From: Aeoliella mucimassa
GTDB lineage: Bacteria > Planctomycetota > Planctomycetia > Pirellulales > Lacipirellulaceae
DNA length: 64,000 nt
Direction of reading: 5' to 3'
Assembly: GCF_007748035.1 (NCBI RefSeq)
Contig: NZ_CP036278.1
Span: 2,108,001-2,172,000, forward strand
Below the pieces are notes generated by a model. It saw only the letters and a program-made list of their open reading frames with translations. It did no database searches and had not been told where the DNA came from. Numbering within the stretch: position 1 is the first letter of the stretch; the number at the start of each line of letters is the position of its first letter. Below, one piece after another: positions 29,641 to 56,827 of this stretch. A program made the position numbers and the translations under genes.

Positions 29641-31758
29641 ATGTTACGCGTAAACAGCTTGCTAGCGGTCGGGTTGTTGTTGTTAGCCACTCCGGCATGG
29701 TCGCAAACCGATCTGCCTTGGTGGGTTGATTCGGTGCATGTCTCCCCGCCAGGCGTGGGGGGAATCGGCGCGATTACTCTCGAAGGCACCTGGATCGATA
29801 CCGGTGCGCCCGATGCTATTTCGCACTCGGTGATCGATGGCAAGTTGCATCTCACGGTTGCCGCGCCCGACTTGAACGTGAACACCGGCGACGCACTCAC
29901 TCCGTGGACTCTCACCGAGGAGTTTGGCCCCCTCGATCCGCTGGTCAACGAAATCAACGGGTCGATCTTCTCGGTCGATCCCGCTAATCGCGGCAATCGC
30001 CAATGGGTTTCGGGACCTAATATTCTCGGCTGGATTTATCCCCAGCCACGTGGAGAGTTTCGTGGGCTAGGAAGTTTAGGGCAGGCAGGGCTGATGAGCG
30101 CAGCGTACGACGTGTCGGCCAATGGCAACGTCGTTACCGGGCAGGCCGCCATGGCAGATAGCGCCGGGGCGATCACCACCACCGCGTTCGCTTGGTCCGA
30201 GGCAACCGGCATGATATCGCTGGGCCTGCTGCCCAACGGCGCGCCTGGCAGCAGCACTGGCCGAGGTGTTTCGGCCGATGGCAATTATATCGTGGGCGAT
30301 TCGGCCTCGCGCGACGATTTTGGCCTTCACGGCCAGGAGGCGTTTCGCTGGTCGCTTGGTTCCGGCGTGGAAGGGCTAGGGCACCTGCATGAAGGATATG
30401 CAACGAGCGAAGCCCGAGCGACCTCACGAAACGGTGAAGTAGTGGTCGGCGTCGACGACTTCTATCCTCCAAGTTTCGCGCCGATTCCCATTGGGTACTT
30501 TCAACGCGCGTTTCGCTACACCGACGCTTCTGGCATGCAAGACCTCGGCACCTTGCCGGCGTACACCACGGACTCGGCCAGTGAAGCGGTCGACGTAAGT
30601 GCCGATGGAAACGTGATTGTGGGCAACGCGTTTCGCAGTCCTTATTCAGCAACCGACGCGATTCATTTCGATCAAGCTCAGCCGTTCCTATGGACCGAAG
30701 AAACGGGCATGCAGGGGTTGGGGAACCCAGGCCGGGCAGTGATTGCCATTTATCCCACTCCGAACCAACAGACGATCGCCAATGCGGTGTCGGCCGATGG
30801 CAAAATCGTAGTAGGAGTCGACCGCCTGTACTGGGAAGATTTGACACTGCCACCATGGCCAGCGGTGCCAGCTCCGTTTGATCAAGCCGTGATGTGGACC
30901 GAAGAGAGCGGCTGGCGAGACCTGCGACCGTTCCGCATGGCACCAGGGCCTGAGTTTGTTGGCTCCGAAGCGGTCGACGTGTCGGCCGAGACCGGCGCGA
31001 TTATCGGGCAGGCGTATCTCACCTCGGTCGATGCCACCAGTTCGTCGGCATGGCTCGAAGGCGACCTGGACGAACTTGGGCGGACTCAAGTGCCATTTAT
31101 TTGGGACGAAACACACGGCATGCGCCCGCTGGCTCGCGTGCTGGCCGGCGACTACGGCCTCGACTTCGAGGGCTGGCGACTTAACCAGGCGACCGCCATT
31201 TCGGACGATGGCACCACGATCGTCGGTGTCGGCGTGAACCCCGATGGTGTCGAGGAAGCCTGGCGGGCGGTGATGTATCGAACCACTCGGGCCGGCGACA
31301 CCGACTTTGATGGCGATGTCGATCAACTCGACGTTGCCGCATTGGCAGCCAATATGGGCAAATCTTCCACCCAGCAGGACCTCTACTGGATGGATGGCGA
31401 CTTCGACAACAATGGCGTGATCGACGAGGCGGATCACTTGCTGCTGCTCGCCAACTACGACGGTCGCGCGGTCGGCGATTTCAATGCCGATGGCATCGTG
31501 AATCTCGCCGATTACACGGTCTGGCGAGACCATCTCGGCCTGAACACCGGCATCGCCGACGCCAGCGGCGATGGCTACGTCACCAAGCACGACTACGATG
31601 TCTGGCAGCAGAACTTTGGCACCGTGCTCGATGGCAACCTCGCCCAACTCACCAGTGGCGCGGTGCCCGAGCCTGCGACTTCGGTCCTCACGTTGTTCGG
31701 TCTGGCTTTGTGCGTGGTTGCTCGTCGGCGCCACCGTGATTCCACTGCGACCGAATGA
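29641..31758 (+). CDS. PEP-CTERM protein with HAF repeats and dockerin-like loops
   Basis: A 705-aa exported protein, ATG at 29641 after GGGGGA. It has a signal peptide (residues 1-22, ending AWSQ). Residues about 140-530 carry repeated HAF-type units, e.g. GRGVSADGNYIVGDS, followed by AFRYTDASGMQDLG. About 555-680 are calcium-loop, dockerin-like segments: GDTDFDGDVDQLDV, GDFDNNGVIDEAD, GDFNADGIVNLADYTVWRD, GDGYVTKHDYDVW. It ends with VPEPATSVLTLFGLALCVVARRRHR, a PEP-CTERM sorting signal processed by an exosortase. Its stop is two bases from the end of the split fucosidase, on the opposite strand. Confidence 0.9.
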   Translation: MLRVNSLLAVGLLLLATPAWSQTDLPWWVDSVHVSPPGVGGIGAITLEGTWIDTGAPDAISHSVIDGKLHLTVAAPDLNVNTGDALTPWTLTEEFGPLDPLVNEINGSIFSVDPANRGNRQWVSGPNILGWIYPQPRGEFRGLGSLGQAGLMSAAYDVSANGNVVTGQAAMADSAGAITTTAFAWSEATGMISLGLLPNGAPGSSTGRGVSADGNYIVGDSASRDDFGLHGQEAFRWSLGSGVEGLGHLHEGYATSEARATSRNGEVVVGVDDFYPPSFAPIPIGYFQRAFRYTDASGMQDLGTLPAYTTDSASEAVDVSADGNVIVGNAFRSPYSATDAIHFDQAQPFLWTEETGMQGLGNPGRAVIAIYPTPNQQTIANAVSADGKIVVGVDRLYWEDLTLPPWPAVPAPFDQAVMWTEESGWRDLRPFRMAPGPEFVGSEAVDVSAETGAIIGQAYLTSVDATSSSAWLEGDLDELGRTQVPFIWDETHGMRPLARVLAGDYGLDFEGWRLNQATAISDDGTTIVGVGVNPDGVEEAWRAVMYRTTRAGDTDFDGDVDQLDVAALAANMGKSSTQQDLYWMDGDFDNNGVIDEADHLLLLANYDGRAVGDFNADGIVNLADYTVWRDHLGLNTGIADASGDGYVTKHDYDVWQQNFGTVLDGNLAQLTSGAVPEPATSVLTLFGLALCVVARRRHRDSTATE

Positions 31759-31862
31759 GTTAATAGGCGGCCAACTTGCGGATGCTGGGAGTGGCCACCG
31801 CGGTGGCGCGCAGCCGGAGGGCGCTCAGTTGCGTCGCGTCGAACCGGTGAATCCACTTATGA

Positions 31863-31871
31863 CCAATGGAT
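31863..31871. repeat. 9-bp target site duplication, left copy
   Basis: CCAATGGAT adjoins the left IS end and recurs at 32907-32915 at the right IS end. A 9-bp duplication suits IS5-family elements of the IS903 type. It shows this copy arose by simple insertion. Confidence 0.9.
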
Positions 31872-32906
31872 GGCCTTGTTGACTAACTCCACTCGAACTG
31901 TGGAAGCCCGAGTTGGGTGAATTGATTGATGATTTTACAGCGCAAGCGGGCTTCCGTTTGTTGGTTTTCGAATACTCGGTTTTTGAGATGGCTCCCAAAG
32001 CTTTGTTTCACTCGGTACATGGTCGTTTCCGCCAAGCTTCTACGATGATAGCCCACTTCCTCTTTCCAACTCCTACGCCCCTTGCGTCGAATCTGACGAA
32101 TTGCCTCGTCCCGGGGCAAAGGCTCCTCCGCAGAGTTGCCATGTTGTTTGATCTTGGCGTTGTGCTGCGGCGGAATCACCGGCTCAATGCCTTCGGATTC
32201 CAGCCCTTCATAAACCTTCCACTTGTCGTAACTACCGTCGCCGTGAAACTTTTTTACGGGCTGCTCCACCTGCTCCAGCATTTCGGGAACCGCATCGGCA
32301 TCGTGGCAACTGTTCTCGGTCAAAATCTCCGCCACAATCTCGCGGGTGTCAGGATTCACCGACAAATGCAGCTTCCGCCATGTCCGCCGCTTCGACTTGC
32401 CATGCGTCCGCATCTTCCATTCGCCCTCGCCAAACACTTTCATGCCGGTGCTATCCACCACGATATCGATGTCGCCCCTCTTGTTAGCGATATCGAGCGA
32501 AACATTCAGCTTGCTGGCTCGCTTGGCGAGCGAAGAATAATTGGGAATCGCTGCCTCGACGCCCAACATCGCCACCAGCGAGCGGCCGAATCCCTCAGTC
32601 TGCCGATAGGGAAGTTTCAGCAGTTCGCGAATCGTCAGCAAGCACTCGATCGCCGTATCGCTGAAGACAAAAGGGCGACCGACTTTTGTCTGGTCGTTAG
32701 GATGTTCCCAGTTCTCCAACGCCTCGTCGCTAAACCAAATAGTGATGTTTCCACGCTCGATGAGCGACTTGTTATACTCCTTCCAGTTCGTGACTTTGTA
32801 GGTTCGTTTTTCTTTCGTAGCCATGTTCGATCTCCGTAAAAAAGGTACGTGGTTCCATTCCACGTTAGTTTTTACGGAGGTTTGTGACTAATTGTTCAAC
32901 AAGGCC
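31872..32906 (-). mobile_element. IS5-like insertion sequence, copy 1 (1035 bp)
   Basis: The ends are inverted repeats starting GGCCTTGTTGA on both sides. Its transposase lies on the minus strand. It is flanked by a perfect 9-bp duplication (31863-31871 and 32907-32915). Copy 2 at 52443-53477 has the same length, and the two transposases translate identically over 326 codons. The near-identity suggests recent spread. Confidence 0.95.
31883..32824 (-). CDS. IS5-family transposase (copy 1)
   Basis: A 313-aa DDE transposase from ATG 32824 (an upstream in-frame Met at 32863 lies near the IS end). N-terminal part: VTNWKEYNKSLIERGNITIWF, a typical IS5 opening. The catalytic domain has DIDIVVDSTGMKVFGEGEW (first Asp), FHGDGSYDKWK (second Asp) and a late Glu in HRRSLAETTMYRVKQSFG, the IS5 Y-(2)-R-(3)-E-(6)-K block. 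The sequence is full length and looks active. An identical protein is encoded by copy 2. Confidence 0.95.
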   Translation of the reverse strand: MATKEKRTYKVTNWKEYNKSLIERGNITIWFSDEALENWEHPNDQTKVGRPFVFSDTAIECLLTIRELLKLPYRQTEGFGRSLVAMLGVEAAIPNYSSLAKRASKLNVSLDIANKRGDIDIVVDSTGMKVFGEGEWKMRTHGKSKRRTWRKLHLSVNPDTREIVAEILTENSCHDADAVPEMLEQVEQPVKKFHGDGSYDKWKVYEGLESEGIEPVIPPQHNAKIKQHGNSAEEPLPRDEAIRQIRRKGRRSWKEEVGYHRRSLAETTMYRVKQSFGSHLKNRVFENQQTEARLRCKIINQFTQLGLPQFEWS

Positions 32907-32915
32907 CCAATGGAT
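32907..32915. repeat. 9-bp target site duplication, right copy
   Basis: CCAATGGAT, matching the copy at 31863-31871. Confidence 0.9.
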
Positions 32916-34373
32916 TGTCCTTTCGCTAGCGGGTGCCAGGCTCCATCCTCCGTGCGGCCCTCGACCACGTAGCTGCGGACCCGTTCCCCCTGTTCGATGT
33001 CTTCCATTAACACGACTTGGTCAACCCGCTGGGGAGCAGCGAAGGTAAGTTCCACGAGTTCTCCAAAGCCGCTGGTCTCGCCAACCGGAGTCGCAAAACG
33101 CTCGCGGAGCCGATCGCCGAACGCTTGCAGTCGCTCAATATCGCTCTCCGGCACCAGACCCTCGGAGTTCACTACCTCGCCGAGGATGAAGTTGCAATTA
33201 CGCCCCACCGACTGGTCGTACATGGTCTCCAATGTCGACAGGGACAGCGCGTCGTCGTCTTGATTCGGCGACCAGAACCAGTTGTGTGTTCCGTTCGCCC
33301 CTCGCAGCGGAACATCCACCATGCCTGGCGACCAGCGGGCGGCCCCCGCGACGCCGGAGTGGAGGTGAGGTTTCCATAGCGAGGAGTTGTGCGACACGAA
33401 CTCGCCATCGCTAGCGGCTGGCATCGTCGCCCAGCATGGTGAGCCGGCGTGCCCCGCTTCGTTGCCGATCCAGCGATGATCCGAACGCTGCCCGCTATGG
33501 TAGAACACGCTATCGGGCTGGTGTTGCTCGAAGATCGGCAGCACGTCGGGGCCACCTTGCTGGGGAGTCATCACGCCGGCGTCGAACCAAATCTGCACCA
33601 GCGGGCCATACCGCGAGCAAAGCTCTTCGGTCATTTTCTCCGCCACGCGATTGAACTGCTGCTGCTTCTCAGTGCCGCGGCCGCGTCCCCAGTCGACATA
33701 GTGGCCCCACACTTCCCAGTACACATTTCGATGCGTGCTGAAGTAAATGCCCGGCAAAATGTCGGCCTTGCGACACGACTCCACGAAGTCGGCCACCACG
33801 TCCCCTTTGCCATCGCGCCACTTCGCCTGCTTCACCCCGTAGGGATAAAGATCGCTTTGCCATTGCATGAAGCCATTGAAGTGGGTCGCGGTAAACACCG
33901 CGTACTTCGCCCCCAGGGCTTTGGCCGCTTCGATCCACTGATCGGTGTCGAGCTTCGTAGGATTGTACAACGCGGGATCAAAACGCTTGCGAGTGGTGTT
34001 ATTCGGTGCGGTATCGCCGGCGGCCACCGGCATGTCGAAGTGATAGATCAAGCCAAGCTCGCAGTCTTGCCAACGTTGTTGAGCCGCAGTGGGCCGAGCA
34101 AGTTCGATCGTACCACCTGTGTTGCTATTGGCTGTGACTGGCGGTTGAGCGAGCAGCGAAGCGGGCGACTGCAGCAGGCCTTGCGTGACGCCGAGGGCCG
34201 TTGCCGATTGCAGAAAGCGTCGCCGAGAGACTGATGGCATCGGGCTATCCATTCGTTGGAGGAGGAGAACGCTGTAGAGTATAGCGCTTGCCCGAACCGG
34301 TTGCAGCCGTTTTCCGCGGAAAACGCGACTTGTCAGGTGCAATGCTCAGCCGCAGTGTTCCACGCCGGCGCGG

Positions 34374-36242
34374 CTACTGCTCGCCGATCTCGGGTTGCAC
34401 GCCGAGAATGCTCGAAAGCTCGAGCAGCAGGCGTTCGGCCGCTCCCATCTCGGCTCGTTGTTCGAGCACCGAGCGGGCGAGGGCCGGGTTGTCGGTCAGT
34501 AGCCCATCGGCGCCGCGGCTGATCATGGTCGACATACTCACCGCGTCGTTCACGGTCCACACATAAACCTCTTTGTCATTCTGGTGGGCGCTGCGGATCA
34601 GCCGGCGGTTCGCAAACCTCGCATTCACTGCCAGGAAATCGGCCTTCATTTTGCTCATGCTGCCAGCCGAAACCGACATCAGTAGACCAACCTTCCACTC
34701 CGGGCGAATCGATTTCATCTTCTCGACTTTGTCACGTTTTAGCGACATCGCCATCACCTGGTCGGTCATCCCTCGCGCTTCGACAAGTTCGGCCACACGC
34801 TCCTCAAGTTGCTGATCGTGCCCGTAGTATTTCAGCTCGATATTCACATGGATGCGGTCCTTGCAGAGATCGAGCACCTCGCCAAGGGTCGGCACACGCT
34901 CGGCGTTGAACTTTGCATCGTACCAGCTTCCGATATCGATCGACTCAAGATCGGCCAGGTTCGCATCCCAAATCTTCAGGCGATTGCCCGCCAGCTTCAT
35001 GAAGTCGCTATCGTGTACCACCACTACTTCGCCATCGGCAGTCTCCTGCACGTCGAGTTCAATGAAGTCGGCCCCGTCTTCGATCGCCTGACGAAACGCA
35101 GCCATCGTGTTTTCGGGCGCGGAGACCGAGGCCCCGCGGTGGGCCATGATCTTTACGTTGTCTTCCAGCGAAATATTGCGAATCGCCACGATACCCACGC
35201 CGAGGGCTATCGCAAATCCCAGCACTGCACCAACGACGATGCGTCGGTGATTGATGGCCGAAGGTTTCTTGTCGTCGACCGCTGCTTCAAGCGTCGCCTG
35301 CAACTCGCGATCGGTGCAGTTGGTGCCAAACTCGTGATAGAAACTGTAGAGCAGCGAGCTGAACGAAATCGTGCTGAGCAAATTGACCGCCAGATTCACC
35401 ACGGTCCACAGCAACAAGGTGATGCCAACCGTGAATGCCAGCAATCGCAGCGAGGCCGACGAGTCGGGCGTGATGGCCCTGCCGAGTAGTCCAACCAGAC
35501 CCGAGGCAATGCCACCGAGTGCGAATGTCGCGATCAACCAGGCGACGATCCAGAACAGTAGTTTGCGTCGATGCCCGGCTACTCGCTCGCGACTCACCTG
35601 CAACGCCTGCTGCGGGGCGATGTTCTCGAACAGCACCAGCGGCAACGCCAGAAACCAGTTGCAAGCCAAGCGCAGCAGTAGCACAGTCATGCCGGTCAGG
35701 CAGATGGCTGCCAGCGCCACCGCCCACAGAAACACTGGCGGCTTCTCTTTTAGATAAAAGTTGATGTCGTACTCGGTAAGCAGGCTCATGTAGATCGCAC
35801 CAATCACCACCAGAAACGGTAACACCGCCAGCAGAGTCCAAACCACGATCCGCATGGTCACTCGTAACAAAGGCCAGGCCTTACTTGCGGCAAAACGGAG
35901 TCCAACCGTTGTGAGCAAATGATTCGGTCGCGTATCGCAGGCGAGAATCCCCAGCAGGGCTGCTTGCTCGAGCGCAACAATTGCCAGCCACAGCCCCCCG
36001 ATCACGATCAGCGAAATCCATCCCACCGGGCCAAGGAAGAAGAACAGGATGTCCATGTCGGAGACCACCGAGCTTCCTCCCAAGGCAAGCATGCCATGAA
36101 AGAATATACTCACCAGCGGAGTGAGCACCACGAACGCGAGCACCTTGAACGCAATGTCGGTGAACACCAACGATTTCCACGACGAGCGAATGTGCTGCAC
36201 CACATCGTGGGCGAGGGTAGGGGGGGCGTTCGACGGTGCCAT
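34374..36242 (-). CDS. Membrane-bound glycerophosphodiester phosphodiesterase
   Basis: A 622-aa protein. Residues about 20-350 are a multi-pass membrane region (about six to eight segments), like the glycerophosphoryl diester phosphodiesterase membrane domain. The C-terminal 260 residues are a GDPD TIM barrel: KIMAHRGASVSAPENTMAAFRQAI, ADFIELDVQETADGEVVVVHDSDF (catalytic His and metal-binding Glu/Asp), HVNIELKYY, VYVWTVND, and DGLLTDNP. It hydrolyses glycerophosphodiesters to glycerol-3-phosphate and alcohol. The same fusion is seen in other bacteria. The start is ATG 36242. The fucosidase lies downstream on the same strand. Confidence 0.9.
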   Translation of the reverse strand: MAPSNAPPTLAHDVVQHIRSSWKSLVFTDIAFKVLAFVVLTPLVSIFFHGMLALGGSSVVSDMDILFFFLGPVGWISLIVIGGLWLAIVALEQAALLGILACDTRPNHLLTTVGLRFAASKAWPLLRVTMRIVVWTLLAVLPFLVVIGAIYMSLLTEYDINFYLKEKPPVFLWAVALAAICLTGMTVLLLRLACNWFLALPLVLFENIAPQQALQVSRERVAGHRRKLLFWIVAWLIATFALGGIASGLVGLLGRAITPDSSASLRLLAFTVGITLLLWTVVNLAVNLLSTISFSSLLYSFYHEFGTNCTDRELQATLEAAVDDKKPSAINHRRIVVGAVLGFAIALGVGIVAIRNISLEDNVKIMAHRGASVSAPENTMAAFRQAIEDGADFIELDVQETADGEVVVVHDSDFMKLAGNRLKIWDANLADLESIDIGSWYDAKFNAERVPTLGEVLDLCKDRIHVNIELKYYGHDQQLEERVAELVEARGMTDQVMAMSLKRDKVEKMKSIRPEWKVGLLMSVSAGSMSKMKADFLAVNARFANRRLIRSAHQNDKEVYVWTVNDAVSMSTMISRGADGLLTDNPALARSVLEQRAEMGAAERLLLELSSILGVQPEIGEQ

Positions 36243-36385
36243 TGCAGTTCTCCCAAGTTGCAAAAGGGGCCTCAGCCGCTCGGCCTCACCTGCCGGCCAA
36301 TGGCTGCGAACCATACTACCATTGTTGGCAAGAGAACCAACATCGAAACGGCGGAGGGTGGGGATTTATTTAGAGATCTGAACCA

Positions 36386-37819
36386 TCACATATCTCCCTC
36401 GTCGTCTAGAGCACCGATGGCCTCCAGTTGCCCTGTGACATAAGCGTAGTCTTCAGGGGACATATCGCGGGACTCATAGAATTCTAATGCTTCAGCGTCC
36501 GCAACGAACTCAACCTCGCCATGCAATGCTTCCACTTGTTGTGCGATTTCTTCGATTGATACACTGAAATACTCTTTGCGAAGGTTAACCTTGTTAACCC
36601 TGCGGTGATGAAATGCTTTATGTAATGCATGCTCCAATGCCGGAGCATTGTCGCAAGAAATCATCATGTGAACGTCAAAGGGGAAGGGTACCGATGCGTC
36701 TCCCAGTTCTTTGACTCGATCCATCGGTTCCAGTCTTCTTGTCATCCCAATTTTGAATACACTCACACCAAAGGAACCAAGGTTGGAAATAACATAGATG
36801 TAACCAGCCTTAGTAAGCTCCGCCATGGACTGGGTGCGTTTTGCCCTTTCTTCAGCTTCCAGTAGTTTCGCTCGCAGTGCCTCGATTTCAGTGCTGTGCT
36901 GATCAGCCGATTCGCTTAGAGCTTTCTCAAGAGCTAGTTCGATAGCCTTGCGCTCGGATTCGACGCGTTGCATCTCACGCTCTAATTCCTTCTCTGCTTT
37001 CTTTTCTTCTCGGATCTGCGCCTTGATGCGAGCTTGCTCTTGGCGGGCATGGTCTGCGAGAAGTACTTTCTCGTATTCAGATTTTAGTGCCGCAAACAAC
37101 TCACTCTCTTCGTTTCCGGTAACTACGAAGTCACTTTTTCGGCAAAAATCGATGACCTTTTGAAGCTTGTCTCGTGATGCAGTGTAATTGTTAGGAGTTA
37201 GCCTTGATGATATCCACTTGACACTGTCCTTAAGGAAACGTTTTCCTAGTGCGTCGACAGTTGAAGCCTTGTTTTCAGCCCAAGCAATCCGTTCCATGGA
37301 CTCGTCGCGTTCTTGCTTGACCTCTTCGGCCAGGCGGCGATATTCGTCATTCACCAACTCATCAAAGTTGAGTTTAAAACCCTTGTTTATGTTGACCGCT
37401 TCCTCAAGAGCTCGGGAACGCAATGCATAGTTTTCAGTCATTGCCTCGAGGGCCTCAGACGACTTGCGGATGCTGATGTGCAACTGAGAGAAATAGATAG
37501 CCAAAAACCCTGAAGAAGCTAGGGCAAGCACCCCCAATAGTAGTATGAACTGAGAATTGCCCATTAGCAAAGAGAACACACTGAACAATAAGATAAGCAC
37601 TACAAGGACTAAGCATGCATAGGTGCAGTAGTCGAACCAGTCTTTTGACTGCTGCGGTGGTATCTCCTGTGGGACATGTATAGGTGCCCTGGGTGAATCG
37701 ATAAACGAGACAATCGTGCCACACTTTGGGCACTTTCTGGGAGTACTAAAGGCTTCAATAGGAGCCTTGACCTTGGCCCCACACTCTGGGCAATACCTTG
37801 AGGTATTGTGTTCTGACAT
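36386..37819 (-). CDS. Zinc-ribbon/membrane/coiled-coil protein with T5orf172 (GIY-YIG) domain
   Basis: A 477-aa protein in AT-richer DNA than its neighbours. In order: a zinc ribbon with two CxxC pairs (YCPECGAKV..., KCPKCGTIV); two hydrophobic segments (about 67-87 and 92-110); a long charged coiled coil of the DUF4041 type (about 120-330); then TKAGYIYVISNLGSFGVSVFKIGMTRRLEPMDRVKELGDASVPFPFDVHMM, the T5orf172/Mug113 GIY-YIG-like domain, ending LRKEYFSVSIEEI. DUF4041-T5orf172 proteins occur in phages and genomic islands. The addition of a membrane anchor and zinc ribbon looks unusual. Nuclease activity is not proven. Confidence 0.85.
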   Translation of the reverse strand: MSEHNTSRYCPECGAKVKAPIEAFSTPRKCPKCGTIVSFIDSPRAPIHVPQEIPPQQSKDWFDYCTYACLVLVVLILLFSVFSLLMGNSQFILLLGVLALASSGFLAIYFSQLHISIRKSSEALEAMTENYALRSRALEEAVNINKGFKLNFDELVNDEYRRLAEEVKQERDESMERIAWAENKASTVDALGKRFLKDSVKWISSRLTPNNYTASRDKLQKVIDFCRKSDFVVTGNEESELFAALKSEYEKVLLADHARQEQARIKAQIREEKKAEKELEREMQRVESERKAIELALEKALSESADQHSTEIEALRAKLLEAEERAKRTQSMAELTKAGYIYVISNLGSFGVSVFKIGMTRRLEPMDRVKELGDASVPFPFDVHMMISCDNAPALEHALHKAFHHRRVNKVNLRKEYFSVSIEEIAQQVEALHGEVEFVADAEALEFYESRDMSPEDYAYVTGQLEAIGALDDEGDM

Positions 37820-38295
37820 CGTTTCCCCCCGATAAGATTAGAACATCGTCAAGCTATCCCAGACGATAGGGAGTGGCTCCATTTGTTTCCATTATTATTC
37901 CGGCCTTGTGCCGTGTCATGACCTAGCGAAGATATTCACGCCCCAAGTAAACACCTAAAGCGGTATTTGTAGACAAAAAACTACGGTTCGACTTATTTCA
38001 TCTTGGCTAATAGTATGCTTGTGCCATCTGACGGTGCCTAATAGCTGTTTTCCCTGGTGGGGGTTGGTACTGTTCGACGTAGCCTTTTTCACGCTACCTA
38101 AGACTAGCTGCGGTGTTATGCGTGCAATATCGTCACTCTGCACTGTCGGGCAGCTTAAGGAGAACCTTTTCTTCGTCGCTCAACACTTTTCACTGGAAAA
38201 TGGCCACCTGTGGTGGTCTAATGAACAGGTGGCTGAGGCTGTTGGCTTATTGATGAAAGGAGGGGAGTGAGATGTGATGTTTCCGAGGAACTCGA
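37820..38295. other. AT-rich intergenic stretch
   Basis: About 475 bp upstream of the T5orf172 gene. It should hold that gene's promoter. A plus-strand frame at 38019-38270 (83 codons) ends LFFVAQHFSLENGH...AEAVGLLMKGGE, but has no ribosome site and I cannot support it as a gene. It may be a remnant of acquired DNA. Confidence 0.4.
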
Positions 38296-38800
38296 ACGCT
38301 TAACGACGCGCTGGCGATGGTTTGCCGACGTGGGCGTTCGCTGCTGCGCGGTTGGTTAAGCGGCCGTGGGGCTGCGTCGCTGAAAGCTCCTGGACCCACG
38401 CTACGGGGCGCTCGTTGATAGCGCGTTCGAAATGGCTGGCTGAGATCTTTCGGTCGCTGGAAGCTCCCTCAAGATGACATCCGCAAGTCAGAAATCACCA
38501 TTCAGAAATCACCATTCAGAAATCATAAATCCAAACTCCCCTGGCCCCCGAATCCTGCTCCCTGACTCCTCCCAAAAATAGTTTCCCATGGGTGGGAATC
38601 TATTTTGGGCACATTGATCGGAGGTGTTGGTGTAACTCACTGCATACAAACGACTTGCGATTGTTTCTCATCGCAAAAATAGATTCCCATCGGATGCGTT
38701 TTGGGAAATGGGAATCTATTCGAGCGCGAAAACCGCTTGTTTTATAGGGTGGGCTCGGATTCAATTTTCCCATCGGTGGGAACATTGGGAATCTATTTCT
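38296..38800 (-). repeat. Dispersed intergenic repeat, copy B (inverted)
   Basis: The reverse complement of this segment aligns with 18147-18632. Box-pair AAAATAGTTTCCCAT / ATGGGTGGGAATCTATTTT lies at 38575-38606; further boxes lie at 38677-38690, 38708-38720 and 38785-38798. The conserved block around the TCATCTTGAGGGAGC sequence and the GCGCAGCAGCGAACGC sequence occur in the same order as in copy A. It separates the low-GC T5orf172 region from the NagB operon. Confidence 0.85.
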
Positions 38801-38836
38801 CGCTTCGGGGAATCGTTGCTAATCACGCATAAAAAA

Positions 38837-38866
38837 GACCGGAACAATCGGGTGATTGTTCCGGTC
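38837..38866 (-). terminator. Intrinsic terminator of the sugar operon
   Basis: A 13-bp near-perfect stem (GACCGGAACAATC) with a short loop, followed on the minus strand by six Ts. It lies 56 bp beyond the NagB/PIG-L stop codon and ends the four-gene operon. Confidence 0.9.
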
Positions 38867-38922
38867 GAGAATCTTGCCAGGCGGTGCGAGCCTGGCGGGT
38901 TTCGTTGTGAGATCGTGGGCTG

Positions 38923-40917
38923 TTACAGCACCGTGTCGAGGTCGCCCTTCCAGCGGACGAACCCTTCGATCGCTTCGTACTCGGCCAGGCCGAGGGCGTC
39001 GAACAGTTGGGCGGTCGAGCGGTTGCGGTCTTCGGCACGTTGCCAGAACTCGCGTGGGTCGGATCCTGGGAACAGGGCTTTGTCCTTTTGTGATTCGTGC
39101 TTGAAGATCGCCGCCCGCTTGCGCATCAGCTCTTGCGGGCTGATCGGCACCGACATTTCGAGCTGGTGGGGACCCCATTCCTGCCAGGCACCACGGTACA
39201 GCCAGACTGCACTATCCTGATACCACGATTCTTCCTTCAATCGCAGGCAAGCATTCAGCACGGCAGCCAAGCAGGTGCGGTGCGTGCCGTGCGGATCGGA
39301 AAGGTCACCAGCACAGTAAATCTGATGCGGCTGAACCTTGTTCAACAGATCCATCGTCATCTGAATATCTTCGTCGCCGAGCGGCTTCTTCCGCACCCGA
39401 CCTGTTTCGTAGAACGGCAGGTCCTGGAAGTGGAGTTGCTCGGCCGGCACGCCGCAGAAGCGGGTGGCTGCCCGGGCTTCGGCACGACGAATAATACCCT
39501 TGATAAACTGAACTTCAGGACTATCGACTTGACCAGGTTGCTTGTTTTTGACGAACTCTTCGATGTGGGCTTCGAGCTCCCCGGTGCGTTGGGGATCGAT
39601 GCCGAAGTGTCGATTGAATTCGGCTGCAAACTCGGCGAAGCGAATCGCGTCGTCGTCGAACACGGCAATGTTGCCCGACGTCTGGTAGGCGACATGCACT
39701 TCGTGACCTTGGTCGACCAGGCGAATGAGCGTACCGCCCATCGAGATCACATCGTCATCCGGATGCGGCGAGAAGATCAGCACCCGCTTGGGATAGATGT
39801 GTTCGTGGGCCTGCGAACGATCGCCCGGCTTCTTTTCGTGGTCGGGCTTACCGCCGGGCCAGCCGGTGATGGTGCTCTGCAGCGAGCGGAAGACTTGCAG
39901 GTTGATCTCGTAGGCCGAGCCGCGCGTGGCGACCAGGTCCTGCAGACCTTCCTCGTTGTAGTCTTCCTCGGTCAGCTTGAGCACTGGCTTGTCGACTTGC
40001 TGAGCCAGCCAGATGACCGCTTTGCGGATGAGGGTTTCGTCCCACTTCACCTTGCCGAGCGTCCACGGGCAGCGGCGGCGAGTCAGGTGCTCGGCCGCGG
40101 CTTCGTCGATGAAGAACTGCGAGTTGGGATGTTTTTGCAGGAAGCTCGCAGCGACCGAGCTGGTGATTTCGCCTTCGATGGCTTCGGCCGTGATGCGTGC
40201 TTTGCCTTCGCCGAAGGCCATGATCACCACTTGGTGGGCGTCGAGAATGGTGCCGACACCCATGGTGATCGCCCGGCGAGGCACGTTGTCGTCGCCGAAG
40301 AAGTCGCTCGCTGCATCACGGCGCGTAATGCGGTCGAGCGTGATCAAACGGGTGCGGCTGTTGCGGCCGGAGCCTGGCTCGTTGAAGCCGATGTGGCCGG
40401 TGCGACCAATGCCGAGCAGCTGCAGATCGATGCCGCCGCACTGCTGAATGGCCTGCTCGTAACGACGGCAGTAATCGTCGACGTCGGTGTCGACCAGCGT
40501 ACCATCGGGAATGTGGATGTTGGCCGGATCGATATCGACATGGTCGAACAAGTGCTCATGCATGAACCGCACGTAGCTTTGCAGCTCGTGAGGTTGCATG
40601 GGGTAGTACTCGTCGAGGTTGAAGGTAATGACGTTGCGGAACGACAGGCCTTCTTCCTGGTGCATGCGAACCAGCGCGTTGTACACGCCGACCGGGGTGC
40701 TACCGGTGGCGAGACCCAGCACGCAAGGGCGACCTTCGCCTTCGCGGGTGCGAATGAGCGCGGCAATCTGCTGCGCGACGGCCAGGCTGGCTTGCGTGGC
40801 GTGACGGAACACGCGGCAAGGGATCTTTTCTACTTCATCCAAAGGGACATTGTCGAAGCGGAGTTGCATCGAAGATTCGGAAGGTCGATTCGAAGGGCGT
40901 TCAGAAACAGTACTCAT
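38923..40917 (-). CDS. nagB: NagB-PIG-L fusion: glucosamine-6-phosphate deaminase with deacetylase-like domain
   Basis: A 664-aa fusion. The N-terminal half is glucosamine-6-phosphate deaminase: LGLATGSTPVGVYNAL, VITFNLDEYYPM (catalytic Asp), GIGRTGHIGFNEPGS and the His/Glu region. The C-terminal half is a PIG-L-type zinc deacetylase: RVLIFSPHPDDDVISMGGTL and the late DLSDPHGTHRTC metal ligand. NagB converts GlcN-6-P to fructose-6-P and ammonia; the PIG-L half may supply it by deacetylating an N-acetyl sugar. The start is ATG 40917, 4 bp after the SUMF1-like stop. This fusion is known in other bacteria. Confidence 0.93.
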   Translation of the reverse strand: MSTVSERPSNRPSESSMQLRFDNVPLDEVEKIPCRVFRHATQASLAVAQQIAALIRTREGEGRPCVLGLATGSTPVGVYNALVRMHQEEGLSFRNVITFNLDEYYPMQPHELQSYVRFMHEHLFDHVDIDPANIHIPDGTLVDTDVDDYCRRYEQAIQQCGGIDLQLLGIGRTGHIGFNEPGSGRNSRTRLITLDRITRRDAASDFFGDDNVPRRAITMGVGTILDAHQVVIMAFGEGKARITAEAIEGEITSSVAASFLQKHPNSQFFIDEAAAEHLTRRRCPWTLGKVKWDETLIRKAVIWLAQQVDKPVLKLTEEDYNEEGLQDLVATRGSAYEINLQVFRSLQSTITGWPGGKPDHEKKPGDRSQAHEHIYPKRVLIFSPHPDDDVISMGGTLIRLVDQGHEVHVAYQTSGNIAVFDDDAIRFAEFAAEFNRHFGIDPQRTGELEAHIEEFVKNKQPGQVDSPEVQFIKGIIRRAEARAATRFCGVPAEQLHFQDLPFYETGRVRKKPLGDEDIQMTMDLLNKVQPHQIYCAGDLSDPHGTHRTCLAAVLNACLRLKEESWYQDSAVWLYRGAWQEWGPHQLEMSVPISPQELMRKRAAIFKHESQKDKALFPGSDPREFWQRAEDRNRSTAQLFDALGLAEYEAIEGFVRWKGDLDTVL

Positions 40918-51838: not shown

Positions 51839-51850
51839 GGAGTGCGCGCC

Positions 51851-52453
51851 GTGTCCACGAATGTCAAGAATTACCGCAATATCTTCTTTGAAGAGTCGAT
51901 TGAGCATCTGGCCGATGTCGAAGCCGGATTGCTTGGACTCGAGGGAGATCCCAACGATAGTAGTTTGCTGGATCAAGTATTCCGTGGAGTGCACTCCATC
52001 AAAGGTGGTGCGGCCACATTTGGACTTGAAGCGGTCGCAAACTTCTCTCACTCGTTGGAAAACCACCTCGATCGATTGCGAGCAGGTGAGTGCGAAAACG
52101 ATGCAAACTCTGCAGATGCTCTGTTTCGGTCGGTAGACTGCTTGCGGGCGCTCGTCGAGGCTGCGCAGAGCGAGGAATCGTTAGAGGCCGACACCACTCG
52201 CGAGATCGAAGAAATCACGAACATTCTCAGCTTTGTGCAAGAAGCAGCTCAGGAAGCGATTGTGCCTGTTGAAGCTCCTGTGGTTGTCGCCGCAGCTGAG
52301 GTGCCGGTAAACACAAAGCAGGACTGGAGTATCACCTTCGTGCCAGGGCCGGGCGCCTTTCAGAACGGTCTTGATCCAACTCTCATTTGGCGCGAACTTA
52401 GCCAGTTGGGAGATTTGAAAGTCGAACTCGACAATTCCAACTGGCCTTGTTGA
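51851..52453 (+). pseudogene. cheA: CheA histidine kinase, truncated by insertion sequence
   Basis: Only the N-terminal 200 residues remain. The start is a GTG at 51851 with AAGGAG upstream (51837). The Hpt domain is complete: EESIEHLADVEAGLLGLE and FRGVHSIKGGAATFGLEAVANFSHSLENHLDRLR (phospho-His). A linker follows and then WSITFVPGPGAFQNGLDP, the beginning of a second repeated domain. The frame enters the IS at 52443 and stops four codons later. The kinase core, regulatory domain and CheW-like part are absent from the window, so this cannot be a functional CheA. Confidence 0.9.
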
Positions 52454-53477
52454 CTAACTCCACTCGAACTGTGGAAGCCCGAGTTGGGTGAATTGATTGA
52501 TGATTTTACAGCGCAAGCGGGCTTCCGTTTGTTGGTTTTCGAATACTCGGTTTTTGAGATGGCTCCCAAAGCTTTGTTTCACTCGGTACATGGTCGTTTC
52601 CGCCAAGCTTCTACGATGATAGCCCACTTCCTCTTTCCAACTCCTACGCCCCTTGCGTCGAATCTGACGAATTGCCTCGTCCCGGGGCAAAGGCTCCTCC
52701 GCAGAGTTGCCATGTTGTTTGATCTTGGCGTTGTGCTGCGGCGGAATCACCGGCTCAATGCCTTCGGATTCCAGCCCTTCATAAACCTTCCACTTGTCGT
52801 AACTACCGTCGCCGTGAAACTTTTTTACGGGCTGCTCCACCTGCTCCAGCATTTCGGGAACCGCATCGGCATCGTGGCAACTGTTCTCGGTCAAAATCTC
52901 CGCCACAATCTCGCGGGTGTCAGGATTCACCGACAAATGCAGCTTCCGCCATGTCCGCCGCTTCGACTTGCCATGCGTCCGCATCTTCCATTCGCCCTCG
53001 CCAAACACTTTCATGCCGGTGCTATCCACCACGATATCGATGTCGCCCCTCTTGTTAGCGATATCGAGCGAAACATTCAGCTTGCTGGCTCGCTTGGCGA
53101 GCGAAGAATAATTGGGAATCGCTGCCTCGACGCCCAACATCGCCACCAGCGAGCGGCCGAATCCCTCAGTCTGCCGATAGGGAAGTTTCAGCAGTTCGCG
53201 AATCGTCAGCAAGCACTCGATCGCCGTATCGCTGAAGACAAAAGGGCGACCGACTTTTGTCTGGTCGTTAGGATGTTCCCAGTTCTCCAACGCCTCGTCG
53301 CTAAACCAAATAGTGATGTTTCCACGCTCGATGAGCGACTTGTTATACTCCTTCCAGTTCGTGACTTTGTAGGTTCGTTTTTCTTTCGTAGCCATGTTCG
53401 ATCTCCGTAAAAAAGGTACGTGGTTCCATTCCACGTTAGTTTTTACGGAGGTTTGTGACTAATTGTTCAACAAGGCC
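52443..53477 (-). mobile_element. IS5-like insertion sequence, copy 2 (1035 bp)
   Basis: Same length and ends as copy 1 (31872-32906). The left flank (ATTCCAACT) and right flank (GTTTTAATG) do not match, so there is no target duplication. The left flank is cheA; the right flank is unrelated low-GC DNA. This pattern is expected from an IS-adjacent deletion or from recombination with another copy. Confidence 0.93.
52454..53395 (-). CDS. IS5-family transposase (copy 2)
   Basis: Translated identically to the copy 1 transposase (31883-32824), with the same DDE residues. Start ATG at 53395 by analogy with copy 1. Intact. Confidence 0.95.
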   Translation of the reverse strand: MATKEKRTYKVTNWKEYNKSLIERGNITIWFSDEALENWEHPNDQTKVGRPFVFSDTAIECLLTIRELLKLPYRQTEGFGRSLVAMLGVEAAIPNYSSLAKRASKLNVSLDIANKRGDIDIVVDSTGMKVFGEGEWKMRTHGKSKRRTWRKLHLSVNPDTREIVAEILTENSCHDADAVPEMLEQVEQPVKKFHGDGSYDKWKVYEGLESEGIEPVIPPQHNAKIKQHGNSAEEPLPRDEAIRQIRRKGRRSWKEEVGYHRRSLAETTMYRVKQSFGSHLKNRVFENQQTEARLRCKIINQFTQLGLPQFEWS

Positions 53478-53785: not shown

Positions 53786-54421
53786 TTATTCGAGGGGGTG
53801 CCACTCAAAATATCGTTCTAGGATTCTCTTTACTTTCTTATCGCTCCAATTATCGCCTAGTTCTCGGGCGATACTACTCCATGGCTTACCAAGCTGCGAC
53901 AAGATGTAAGGTAGTTGTTTGGGAGCTTCCATGTTCCTAGGGCGTCCCCCCTTGCGGCTTGGGTTGTGAGTGTTGGCAGCACGCTTGCGAATGCCTGGTA
54001 GGTCCTTCGCGGGAGTGGTCAGCGGGTTGAGGGAAATGAAGTCCACACCGGGGAATCTACTCAACTTATGAGGGTGCCGACTAAAACGCTGGTAGTCAAA
54101 TGCAACAATCGGGAATCCCTCTTTTTCGGCATGTTCTATTGCTGCCATTAATTGAGGGGTGCTCCTAGAACCGATTCGTTGCCCGGATTCACCGATTCCG
54201 GAGTAAAAGGCGGCAACGGGTAGCTGTCTATCCCGGGCGAACAACTCAACAGCATACTTTTGGTACTCACCCTTTCGGCTCTCGCCGTCTTGGTTCGGCG
54301 AAGTACGTAGATAGCCGATGATTCCAGAGGTGTCGAGCCACCCGGTGTAAGATTCAACATCGTGAAGGTTGGAGGGAAACGGCTTTGAATTGTTGTCGCA
54401 TTTAGGTAAACTTAAATGCAT
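53786..54421 (-). CDS. Serine-recombinase-like (resolvase) protein
   Basis: A 211-aa protein. The N-terminal part resembles the resolvase catalytic domain: IIGYLRTSPNQ (Ser in the YxRxS position), AAFYSGIGESGQRIGSRSTPQLMAAIEHAEKEG, IVAFDYQRFSRHP (DR-like position altered). The C-terminal part has an HTH-like stretch (LPYILSQLGKPWSSIARELGDNWSDKKVKRIL) near the end. The start at 54421 has AGGA 8 nt upstream; 54430 is an alternative. It may act in excision or resolution of the integrative element. Several residues differ from active resolvases, so it could be regulatory. Confidence 0.7.
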   Translation of the reverse strand: MHLSLPKCDNNSKPFPSNLHDVESYTGWLDTSGIIGYLRTSPNQDGESRKGEYQKYAVELFARDRQLPVAAFYSGIGESGQRIGSRSTPQLMAAIEHAEKEGFPIVAFDYQRFSRHPHKLSRFPGVDFISLNPLTTPAKDLPGIRKRAANTHNPSRKGGRPRNMEAPKQLPYILSQLGKPWSSIARELGDNWSDKKVKRILERYFEWHPLE

Positions 54422-54450
54422 GACGATCATCCTAGTTAAGATCGTTAACC

Positions 54451-54489
54451 GCCCTCCAAGGTTGGCCGACCGTGGAGGGCACTTTTTTT
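54451..54489 (+). terminator. Plus-strand terminator inside a minus-strand element
   Basis: Stem GCCCTCCA/TGGAGGGC with further pairing inside, followed by seven Ts on the plus strand. All genes here lie on the minus strand, so it ends a transcript running opposite to them. Confidence 0.65.
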
Positions 54490-54496
54490 GACACTG

Positions 54497-54880
54497 TTAG
54501 TTTTTGAAAAGGTTCCAGAGTTTCCGGTCGGCCTCTTCGCTTTCGGCCTGAATACGCTGCAGGGCGTCGTCTAGACGCTCATCTAGTGTCTTGGGCCTCG
54601 TTTTGGCTTCCGCGGCGGCTACTTTTGCGAGTTTGGCACCGGGTTGAGCAGCAGGAGGGCCAAGCTGGGGGTACTTCTTGAGCAACCGACTCACTGCAAC
54701 TTGATGAAAGGGCCTACCATCCATCATTAAGTGGCCTTCGTCATTCAACCACTTTGCGATCTCACGTTGGGTCAATCCAAGGCTATTGAGTTCATAGAGT
54801 CTTGGCATGATGCTCTGGTAGTACTTATCTGCTTTTGACTGTCGAGCAGCACCAGCAGGGTGCTGGGGTACGGTTGCCAT
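54497..54880 (-). CDS. Small HTH-like protein of the integrative element
   Basis: A 127-aa protein, ATG at 54880 with AAGGAA upstream. A helix-turn-helix-like part lies in LYELNSLGLTQREIAKWLNDEGHLMMDGRPFHQVAVSRLLKKYP, similar to the 'recombinase' helix region of serine recombinases (LN..G....G..W....V...L). The C-terminus is charged and may be coiled (DERLDDALQRIQAESEEADRKLW). It may be an excisionase-like or regulatory protein. No named family is certain. Confidence 0.65.
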   Translation of the reverse strand: MATVPQHPAGAARQSKADKYYQSIMPRLYELNSLGLTQREIAKWLNDEGHLMMDGRPFHQVAVSRLLKKYPQLGPPAAQPGAKLAKVAAAEAKTRPKTLDERLDDALQRIQAESEEADRKLWNLFKN

Positions 54881-54995
54881 TTGTGGTATTCCTTGTTGGC
54901 GAGAACTGTACGGGTGCAACCTTGTCATTGTATCGTGTCTGTATAGAAATCCTAGCGCTTTTCTGGTAGATTCACACGATCCACCGTCCAGCAAA

Positions 54996-55019
54996 AAGCC
55001 CAGTCATATGGCCGGGCTT
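54996..55019 (-). terminator. Terminator of the integrase gene
   Basis: Stem AAGCCC/GGGCTT with a short loop, followed by T-run on the minus strand, 30 bp beyond the integrase stop. Confidence 0.75.
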
Positions 55020-55048
55020 AAGGGAGAAGTGAGAGTAGTTATAAACAG

Positions 55049-56428
55049 CTAGATAACGTACAGCTTTTCTAACTCGTCGGTTGCCTGGAAAAGGGCAGCA
55101 TATGCAGCTTGCACATAATGCCGCTTCATGCCTTTTTCAGCATGAGCTAAGAAAAGTTCTGTAAGATCTGGTCTGACTCTTTCTATCTCGTTTGCCGCCG
55201 ACTTGCGGAAGTGTTTGAAACCCCGCTTGTCGTTTTTCAGTCCTGCCTTTTTCGTTGCCTTCAATCTGTTAAAGGCAAAGCTAACGCAGTCGTTGGTTAC
55301 TAGCTTTCCGTTGTCGTTGATATTCTCGCGGTACAGAGACATTCCGTTTCGGTCGAGCAACAGCGGCCCACTGCTCTTATGGCTCCGATGCTTCTGCATT
55401 AGTTCTAGAGTAGAGGGCCAAAGCTTGGCTTTACTAGGTACACCACTTTTTTGGCGGTCACGGGTGACAATCCCGGTTTGCCAAGCAATCATGTTGGCTT
55501 CTAGAGTGGCAATGTCTCTTTGGGTGTACCCCAGATTAAGGCCTAGCATGATATACAATCGTGTCCGCTGACTGGCCTTGGACAACAGGAGTTTGATTTC
55601 CTCGGTGGTCCAAAAGAGGGGTTTCGGCTTGTCTCGTTTAACACGGGAGTAACTTGAAAGGTCTTTTGGCAAGTCATCAAGTATGTTCTGGTCTACTAGC
55701 CACTTAAGCCACTTGCGTACAGTGTCTAACCGCTTCTTAAGCGTGGCCTTGCCGATTTGATGCTCATCACCCGAATCTAAGAAACTCCATTGCTTATCAC
55801 GGTATAAGTTCAGCATGGCCGCCGTGATCTCATCCACATAGATGGTCTGCGGGTAATTCACCCTGAGGAAGTCTCTGAAAGTCTTCAGCTTAGCGGTATC
55901 CTCTGACCACTGTTTAAGTGATAGCTCCTCTTGCTCGGTTTGGAGTTTTCGTTGTTCATGCCAGAAGTTGGCGAGTGCTTCAATTCGTAACTCCCCTGCA
56001 TAAGGGTTGTTCTCATCGCTCACCACTAGCTCGGGATTCAAGAAAGGGCCGATACCGGTGCTGACGATCCAAGCCGGATCGTCGGCAGAGCGTGAGGCAG
56101 CAGGCGAAGCCCCTTTGGAAGTGTTGCGGGCCGCTGCTGGTGTTCGTACTGCTGCCGTGGTTGCTCTCACCGGGGCGGGGGGAATGTAAGTAGGTGCTGC
56201 GTTAAAAACTTGTTCTTCGGGTACTAAGGCCCCCGTTGTGGTGTAGGGACTCGGGCCGAGCCCGTCTATGTAAGCCTTGAGTCGCTCCCATTCTCTTAAG
56301 GCATTCTCATACCCCGTGCGGTCTCGTTTGCCGTTGGCTTGGCTTCTCATGTAATACGTCTTGCCCAGATATCTCTTTCGCCATCGCTTCGCGTGAGGCA
56401 TCCAGGTTAGTTTGTAGGCGTAGGCCAT
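55049..56428 (-). CDS. Tyrosine recombinase/integrase
   Basis: A 459-aa phage-type integrase. A basic N-terminal region (KRWRKRYLGKTYYMRSQANG) and a core-binding domain (LTEDTAKLKTFRDFLRVNYPQ-like text) precede the catalytic domain. Catalytic residues: Arg in GYTQRDIATLEA, second basic group in FKHFRKSAANEIE (HxxR), and the Tyr nucleophile in KRHYVQAAYA. The gene starts about 330 bp from tRNA-Gln, as integrases of tRNA-targeted elements do. Lower GC than its surroundings. Likely functional by motif content. Confidence 0.9.
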   Translation of the reverse strand: MAYAYKLTWMPHAKRWRKRYLGKTYYMRSQANGKRDRTGYENALREWERLKAYIDGLGPSPYTTTGALVPEEQVFNAAPTYIPPAPVRATTAAVRTPAAARNTSKGASPAASRSADDPAWIVSTGIGPFLNPELVVSDENNPYAGELRIEALANFWHEQRKLQTEQEELSLKQWSEDTAKLKTFRDFLRVNYPQTIYVDEITAAMLNLYRDKQWSFLDSGDEHQIGKATLKKRLDTVRKWLKWLVDQNILDDLPKDLSSYSRVKRDKPKPLFWTTEEIKLLLSKASQRTRLYIMLGLNLGYTQRDIATLEANMIAWQTGIVTRDRQKSGVPSKAKLWPSTLELMQKHRSHKSSGPLLLDRNGMSLYRENINDNGKLVTNDCVSFAFNRLKATKKAGLKNDKRGFKHFRKSAANEIERVRPDLTELFLAHAEKGMKRHYVQAAYAALFQATDELEKLYVI

Positions 56429-56609
56429 TGCTGCAGTTGCTCCGAAATGTGACCAAAGGGGCTAAGGTCGGGGGGAGCAAGATAAGCAACTCGGTTAGCT
56501 TCATGCAAACGATTCCACGGTTCCAATCACCGATTGGAGTTTGGCCATTTAGCAGACCCAAAACCCGAACGGTTTTGATACCGCATCTTTGACCTTTTCT
56601 TGACCTTTG

Positions 56610-56673
56610 GGGAACACTTAGGGAACACTTTGGGAACACTTTGGGAACACTTTGGGAACACTTTGGGAACATT
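56610..56673. repeat. Tandem 11-bp repeats
   Basis: Five full units and one shorter unit of GGGAACACTTT (units start at 56610, 56621, 56632, 56643, 56654 and 56665). The 11-bp period is near one helical turn, so bound proteins would lie on one face of DNA. They precede the integrase by about 180 bp. Confidence 0.9.
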
Positions 56674-56676
56674 GCA

Positions 56677-56711
56677 CGAAAAAACCGGGTTGGCTCGAAA
56701 ACCACCCGGTT
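56677..56711 (-). terminator. Terminator downstream of tRNA-Gln
   Basis: On the minus strand, AACCGGGT ... ACCCGGTT is followed by a T-run (6 Ts). It lies 45 bp beyond the tRNA 3' end and reads in the tRNA direction. Confidence 0.8.
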
Positions 56712-56755
56712 ACCGTAAGTGCTTATTTAGAAAGGACTTGCGTTTTTTTAAGAAG

Positions 56756-56827
56756 CTGGGGAGCAGGGACTTGAACCCCGACTAACGGAATCAGAATCCG
56801 TCGTGCTACCGATTACACCACTCCCCA
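56756..56827 (-). tRNA. tRNA-Gln (CUG)
   Basis: A 72-nt cloverleaf on the minus strand. Acceptor TGGGGAG pairs with CTCCCCA; the anticodon stem ACGGA/TCCGT encloses the loop TTCTGAT, anticodon CTG, reading CAG. The T-arm carries GGTTCAAGTCC. The discriminator base is G and CCA is not encoded. The 3' end faces the integrase, as expected for an attachment site. Confidence 0.95.

Follow-up and report, generated by a model that had tools for sequence, protein, structure and literature searches.

A candidate SNIPE-like nuclease of Aeoliella mucimassa that carries a zinc ribbon and a predicted membrane hairpin

Introduction

A gene in a 64,000-nucleotide window (the whole stretch of DNA analysed here, from the 6.6-Mb single-contig genome of Aeoliella mucimassa) encodes a 477-aa protein with a zinc ribbon at one end and a GIY-YIG nuclease domain towards the other, which raises the question of what such a protein does and what the ribbon contributes. 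An earlier note, made from the DNA alone, had described it as a probably acquired DUF4041-T5orf172 protein, unusual in being tethered to the membrane and possibly active in phage defence. PD-Lambda-1 is now known as SNIPE (Nature 2026; PMC13190303), a nuclease that is bound to the membrane and cleaves the DNA of phages as it is injected. SNIPE resides in the inner membrane and cuts lambda DNA during injection, E414 and DUF4041 are both needed, and changing E414 to alanine abolishes defence (PMC13190303). SNIPE is also described as contacting the tape measure protein.

Results

The nuclease domain is intact and matches SNIPE

The open reading frame (36386-37819, minus strand) starts with ATG, contains no internal stop and encodes the parts listed in Table 1. 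Pfam MUG113 and T5orf172 match residues 339-430 at 66 and 64 bits (cut-offs 22.3 and 20), and both models match 25/25 members of our alignment of relatives (A1). PADLOC models for PD-Lambda-1 match at E 8.7e-84 and 4.2e-82, with the best stretch covering residues 242-456 only; PHROG 1847 matches at E 1.2e-83, and the linker and nuclease are also matched by an E. coli phage protein of 500 aa that is annotated as PD-lambda-1. E396 aligns with SNIPE E414, and glutamate occupies this position in 76/78 aligned rows (it is residue 414 in P0002, a phage copy of PD-lambda-1), while Y342, N346, G351, K356, L372 and H400 are invariant in all 78. The catalytic residues of the domain that the earlier note had called GIY-YIG-like are thus in place, and the phage-defence role it had thought possible gains support from homology to the PD-Lambda-1/SNIPE model.

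Other T5orf172/MUG113 proteins share this nuclease domain, above curated cut-offs; short matches among them (L026, L028 and L029) lack the anchor, the coiled coil and the DUF4041-like core. A Foldseek search of the PDB with the whole AlphaFold2 model of the 477-aa protein returned nothing at E ≤ 0.001. Its best row was the GIY-YIG nuclease Slx1 (E 0.7), and the named matches among viral models were largely T5orf172 or Bro-type proteins.

Table 1. Coordinates in the window of the gene, its predicted parts and the surrounding variable slot
Feature	Residues	Position	Strand	Basis
Whole gene, ribbon-bearing SNIPE-like nuclease (477 aa)		36386..37819	-	Open reading frame and profile matches
Zinc ribbon CPEC-x16-CPKC, predicted cytoplasmic	10-33	37721..37792	-	Pfam DZR, conservation
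Transmembrane helix 1	68-86	37562..37618	-	Hydropathy, AlphaFold2 model
Transmembrane helix 2 (preceded by a loop of ~4 residues)	91-109	37493..37549	-	Hydropathy, AlphaFold2 model
Coiled coil	110-190	37250..37492	-	Helix 89-205 in the model
Putative divergent DUF4041-like helical core	~191-252	37064..37249	-	hhalign; no Pfam match
Charged linker helices	253-336	36812..37063	-	Kept in relatives; helical in the model
T5orf172/MUG113 GIY-YIG nuclease domain	337-432	36524..36811	-	Pfam, alignment
Variable slot between genes syntenic in a congener		31631..38923	.	blastn against L102

A membrane hairpin is predicted to keep the ribbon in the cytoplasm

The ribbon cysteines are C10, C13, C30 and C33. 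Pfam DZR scores 24.4 bits on the ribbon, slightly below its cut-off of 27.3, and the ribbon is conserved in relatives. Two hydropathy maxima, at residues 68-86 and 91-109, make up a tight hairpin (68-109), and residues 59-86 and 89-205 are helical in the AlphaFold2 model (mean pLDDT 81.8), with the coiled coil lying between the membrane segments and the nuclease. The N-terminal ribbon, the two membrane segments, the coiled coil and the tethering of a GIY-YIG nuclease to the membrane, all part of the earlier description, therefore stand, the tether as a predicted hairpin and the nuclease above its Pfam cut-offs.

Two hydrophobic stretches follow the ribbon in 19/19 proteins in which ribbon and nuclease are fused. 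Lysines and arginines number 4 in total in the hairpin loops of these 19 proteins and 71 in the 20-residue segments that follow helix 2, the pattern expected if ribbon and nuclease both face the cytoplasm; from hydropathy (used for helices and topology in place of a trained predictor) and charge, we infer such an N-in/C-in arrangement. Among 53 rows without a ribbon, 42 have one helix, 10 have none (several being fragments) and one has two, and this sole two-helix row represents part of a broken gene of the ribbon type. On this hydropathy reading, helix number would track the ribbon, as needed for the ribbon to stay inside.

Membrane anchoring alone is not novel, since membrane helices occur in most SNIPE homologues: one or two are predicted in 66% of 474 (PMC13190303), and by hydropathy at least one is present in 72 of the best 80 of 406 viral-contig relatives. 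Contrary to what the earlier note had assumed, the family is thus not usually soluble, and the tether it had singled out as unusual is the rule.

The middle of the protein may be a divergent, shortened DUF4041

The DUF4041 label did not hold as given. Pfam PF13250 (DUF4041) has no match at E ≤ 1 in the 477-aa protein and none at E ≤ 0.01 in any of the 25 proteins of alignment A1, which rules out a plainly present DUF4041; the Pfam domain was found in 4/4 classic SNIPE controls. Comparing ribbon-type with classic middles by hmmsearch gave weak matches (best E 0.16 to 0.4), and a one-helix profile matched one classic row at E 8.5e-6. By hhalign, 19 ribbon-type and 11 classic middles aligned in the expected register with a probability of 85.5% (P 5.6e-6), and the final 61 columns of the ribbon-type middle fell on the DUF4041 core of E. 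coli PD-lambda-1. This profile-profile alignment to the core, the one comparison that points to it, suggests that the ribbon-type middle is a divergent and shortened DUF4041. At the position of SNIPE E223, where a change to lysine gives stronger defence against one phage (PMC13190303), hhalign places an arginine in the 477-aa protein, a single residue in a weak alignment.

The ribbon occurs in cis or in trans within a separate branch

Relatives were collected from one genome-contig scan (27 loci), three whole-genome searches and annotated records. The whole-genome searches gave a match of any kind at E ≤ 0.001, some short or ribbon-only, in 32/392 genomes of the phylum, 10/39 of relatives and 74/397 of the class, and nearly all relatives that were found by sequence and carry a name belong to Planctomycetota. 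Before counting, 5/95 loci without a tblastn hit at 1e-8 were left out and 14 duplicates were removed (90 to 76 distinct). The tree, built on linker and nuclease columns from 76 rows (3/79 were left out as too short; three classic rows, P0002/L069, P0003/L072 and P0004/L070, repeat reference proteins), separates 44 mostly planctomycete rows from 32 classic SNIPE rows, both branches at 99/90.

Within the branch of 44, the ribbon is fused through the membrane hairpin in 19 rows, including the 477-aa protein, and a partner ORF with a ribbon lies upstream of the nuclease in another 18, or 19/44 with a divergent one at L089. The gene is split at L040/L047, with ribbon and hairpin in the upstream ORF; a Sumerlaeota contig (L060) has, upstream of the nuclease and within ~1-420, a small ORF of another kind that encodes CxxC pairs and a hydrophobic segment; and L059 has neither ribbon nor partner, with the same kind of nuclease and one membrane helix. 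The remaining rows are truncated (L085/L061) or could not be judged (L086, L066). The fused set is what was left of 26 initial ribbon rows after 7 proved to be read-throughs of two genes. A helical/winged-helix domain that seemed fused to the nuclease in L049-L054, L033 and L009 was rejected for the same reason: these are two genes in one frame, and tblastn had crossed the stop codon.

Outside the branch, a ribbon was found in 0/29 classic loci (at the N-terminus or within 800 nt upstream, where upstream DNA was lacking for 2 loci and shorter than 700 nt for 13 more) and in 0 of the best 80 of the 406 viral-contig relatives, which came from 481 candidate stretches with an alignment query (a first viral scan had given one). 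A viral-contig copy (L097/L135) has the same kind of nuclease and one membrane helix without a ribbon and, with L059, indicates that the ribbon is not universally required. A literature search, with preprints and most subscription journals outside its scope, gave no paper that links SNIPE to a zinc ribbon or to a partner protein.

Several ribbon-fused proteins (L073, L077, L078, L079 and L081) carry an extra N-terminal GYF_2-like domain, and L045/L073 have two or three ribbons, which speaks for a shuffled N-terminus. Some gene copies are split or interrupted by stops (L047 8417-9391, L038, L012, L025 and L086), which fits frequent gain and loss. On a Leptospira plasmid (L071:2411-2659) and a Hymenobacter plasmid (L072:1415-1900), a gene for a 'NINE protein' lies directly upstream of the DUF4041 gene and is perhaps another recurrent neighbour of SNIPE.

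The 477-aa protein and E. coli SNIPE (PD-lambda-1; PMC13190303 and PMC9519451) have in common the C-terminal T5orf172/MUG113 GIY-YIG nuclease with the same catalytic glutamate, a long coiled coil and an N-terminal membrane anchor. E. coli SNIPE has one N-out helix, Pfam DUF4041 and a place in the classic branch, whereas the 477-aa protein has a zinc ribbon and a two-helix hairpin, predicted N-in, no Pfam DUF4041 and a place in the separate branch. Because two helices and an N-in/C-in charge pattern set it apart from the E. coli type, we do not call it simply a SNIPE but a SNIPE-like protein of a separate branch. A small N-terminal domain is also shared with SNIPE homologues that bear DUF4428, a putative zinc ribbon in Pfam. 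The homologues reported with DUF4428 are ones in which no membrane helix is predicted (PMC13190303, Extended Data Fig. 10 legend), whereas the ribbon described here comes with a hairpin or on a partner.

The upstream partner is coupled to the one-helix form

The partner is a protein of ~220 aa with helices, a winged helix and a C-terminal zinc ribbon, encoded directly upstream of the nuclease and closely spaced: in the loci that allowed the nuclease start to be placed, its distance from the partner stop is -4 to +60 nt (in the other partner loci the nuclease ORF is over-extended upstream and its start was not placed). Its four ribbon cysteines are invariant in 13/13 aligned partners. No Pfam family scored above cut-off and no PADLOC match was better than E 0.02. 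The AlphaFold2 model (mean pLDDT 88) shows a helical part, followed by a winged helix and an end that resembles a ribbon; Foldseek returned nothing at E ≤ 0.001, with TFIIE rows in its list. Residues ~107-168 superpose on the winged helices of MarR, Fur, Z-alpha and TFE-alpha with Z 9-10.5 and, in most rows, an rmsd of 1.1-1.4 over ~60 residues. TFE/TFIIE also bear a ribbon; the likeness to TFE-alpha, MarR and Fur concerns the partner's winged helix only, which is a common fold. The superposition barely covers the N-terminal helical part and the ribbon, and so we claim no fold for either.

Among the 397 class genomes, all ten strong matches to a partner profile adjoin a nuclease (one is a fragment beside a broken nuclease), and the weaker matches are nearly all ribbon-only. 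The sole match in the Aeoliella mucimassa genome is the ribbon of the 477-aa protein itself (E 6e-5). No partner ORF adjoins 36386-37819, which bears out the single-gene setting given in the earlier note, and none was found beside the fused form anywhere in the fused set (n = 19). The ribbons in cis and in trans are likely homologous; zinc ribbons are common and short, which keeps this at likely rather than proven.

These arrangements bear on the simplest alternative, that the protein is a SNIPE of the ordinary kind and holds a ribbon by chance in its variable N-terminus, with ribbon and hairpin merely positioning it in the membrane. The N-termini of SNIPE homologues do vary greatly: 7% have two membrane helices, and DUF4428 is present in some (PMC13190303). 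The GYF_2-like domains or doubled ribbons of relatives fit loose domain shuffling. A mere adapter, however, would not need a separate ribbon partner that recurs upstream of the one-helix form in 19/44 rows, nor does it sit well with the missing partner beside fused forms, and we regard this alternative as unlikely.

The gene was probably acquired, and its neighbours look ordinary by eye

The GC content of the gene is 0.477 against 0.578 for the window, where 0.6% of stretches of equal length are as low, and in 21/23 relatives the gene is AT-richer than its own flanks. Named by eye, the flanking genes are phosphodiesterase-like and NagB-like; besides the gene under study, the variable slot contains a transposase gene and two more genes. 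In one congener (L102), the NagB and a PEP-CTERM-like gene, 7.3 kb apart in the window, are syntenic with different DNA between them; the slot was seen in this congener only, L103 and L104 giving no second flank. Another congener (G394) has the partner form, and G392 and G393 have no match. An empty site was not found, as the phosphodiesterase-like and NagB-like genes are not adjacent in the relatives searched. The low GC in relatives and the slot that differs between species speak for horizontal acquisition, so that this part of the earlier note, as well as its low-GC setting, is supported. Promoter-like sites were at chance level (2 found, 2.4 expected).

Elsewhere in the window, identical 326-aa transposase-like translations occur at 31883-32863 and 52454-53434, both on the minus strand, and the end of the second directly adjoins that of an Hpt/CheA-like ORF (51842-52453), which is seemingly interrupted. 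The low-GC stretch 53786-56827 contains a resolvase-like ORF and, beside tRNA-Gln (56755-56827), an integrase-like ORF (55049-56428); it is probably an integrated element.

Enrichment in defence islands, which the earlier note had proposed to look for, was not seen among 110 neighbour proteins of 19 relatives (112 selected, less 2 upstream partners, from 175 candidates before distance and length cuts). The Pfam families listed for them are mostly metabolic or transport; the PADLOC matches listed (25/72 families) have one member each, some to general helicases; and the neighbours within the window are, by eye, ordinary genes. These neighbours would fit a membrane nuclease for other incoming DNA, serving uptake processing or blocking plasmids or conjugation rather than phages, and the partner's winged helix could then regulate its own operon. 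The patchy occurrence, low GC and variable slot count against such a function, as do the abundance of relatives on viral contigs and the finding that E. coli SNIPE leaves plasmid transformation unaffected (PMC13190303), and we hold it to be improbable. Less credible still is a phage- or element-borne exclusion gene stranded in the chromosome, aimed at competing phages and not kept by the host: phage PhiR26_1 has PD-lambda-1 close to its cII/Cro genes and the viral-contig copy L097 follows what looks by eye like a repressor ORF, but no phage structural genes were recognised by eye around the gene within the window and the integrase-like ORF is 17 kb off, beside the tRNA.

Discussion

We favour, with reasonable though far from full confidence, the reading of this protein as a SNIPE-like anti-phage nuclease from a branch whose members make use of a zinc ribbon in the cytoplasm. 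At the level of sequence, the nuclease motif, the hairpin, the ribbon, the place in the tree beside classic SNIPE and the close coupling of partner and nuclease are plain to see. From these we infer a membrane location, a cytoplasmic ribbon and the cutting of incoming phage DNA. The hairpin would hold the protein in the inner membrane with ribbon and nuclease on the cytoplasmic side, and this fixation would keep the nuclease off the chromosome. As phage DNA comes in, the DUF4041-like core and the coiled coil may contact it, an injection protein or both, and the nuclease would cut the DNA on arrival. The ribbon would be an accessory module, contacting DNA or protein or restraining the nuclease, and in the sister lineage its job would be done in trans by the coupled winged-helix/ribbon partner; that the ribbon, with the partner's winged helix, senses DNA or an injection complex or restrains the nuclease is speculative. 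The membrane-anchored SNIPE-type nuclease is known already; what appears new is the separate branch, with a ribbon supplied in cis or in trans.

A bolder proposal, which we put forward tentatively and consider possible rather than probable, is a two-module SNIPE of planctomycetes, in which a cytoplasmic zinc-ribbon subunit (with or without a winged helix), fused through the hairpin or present as a coupled partner, detects the incoming DNA or the apparatus that injects it and unleashes the nuclease held at the membrane. If true, a separate subunit for sensing or licensing would be a first for SNIPE and would account for the way in which self is told from non-self in a branch with a reduced DUF4041. 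With the ribbon on the same chain in some members and on a partner in others, sensing and cutting could be separated experimentally, and the partner adds a candidate family named by neither Pfam nor PADLOC. To our knowledge, few phage defences have been tested in Planctomycetota, and the branch would extend the SNIPE system to this phylum with its unusual cell envelope.
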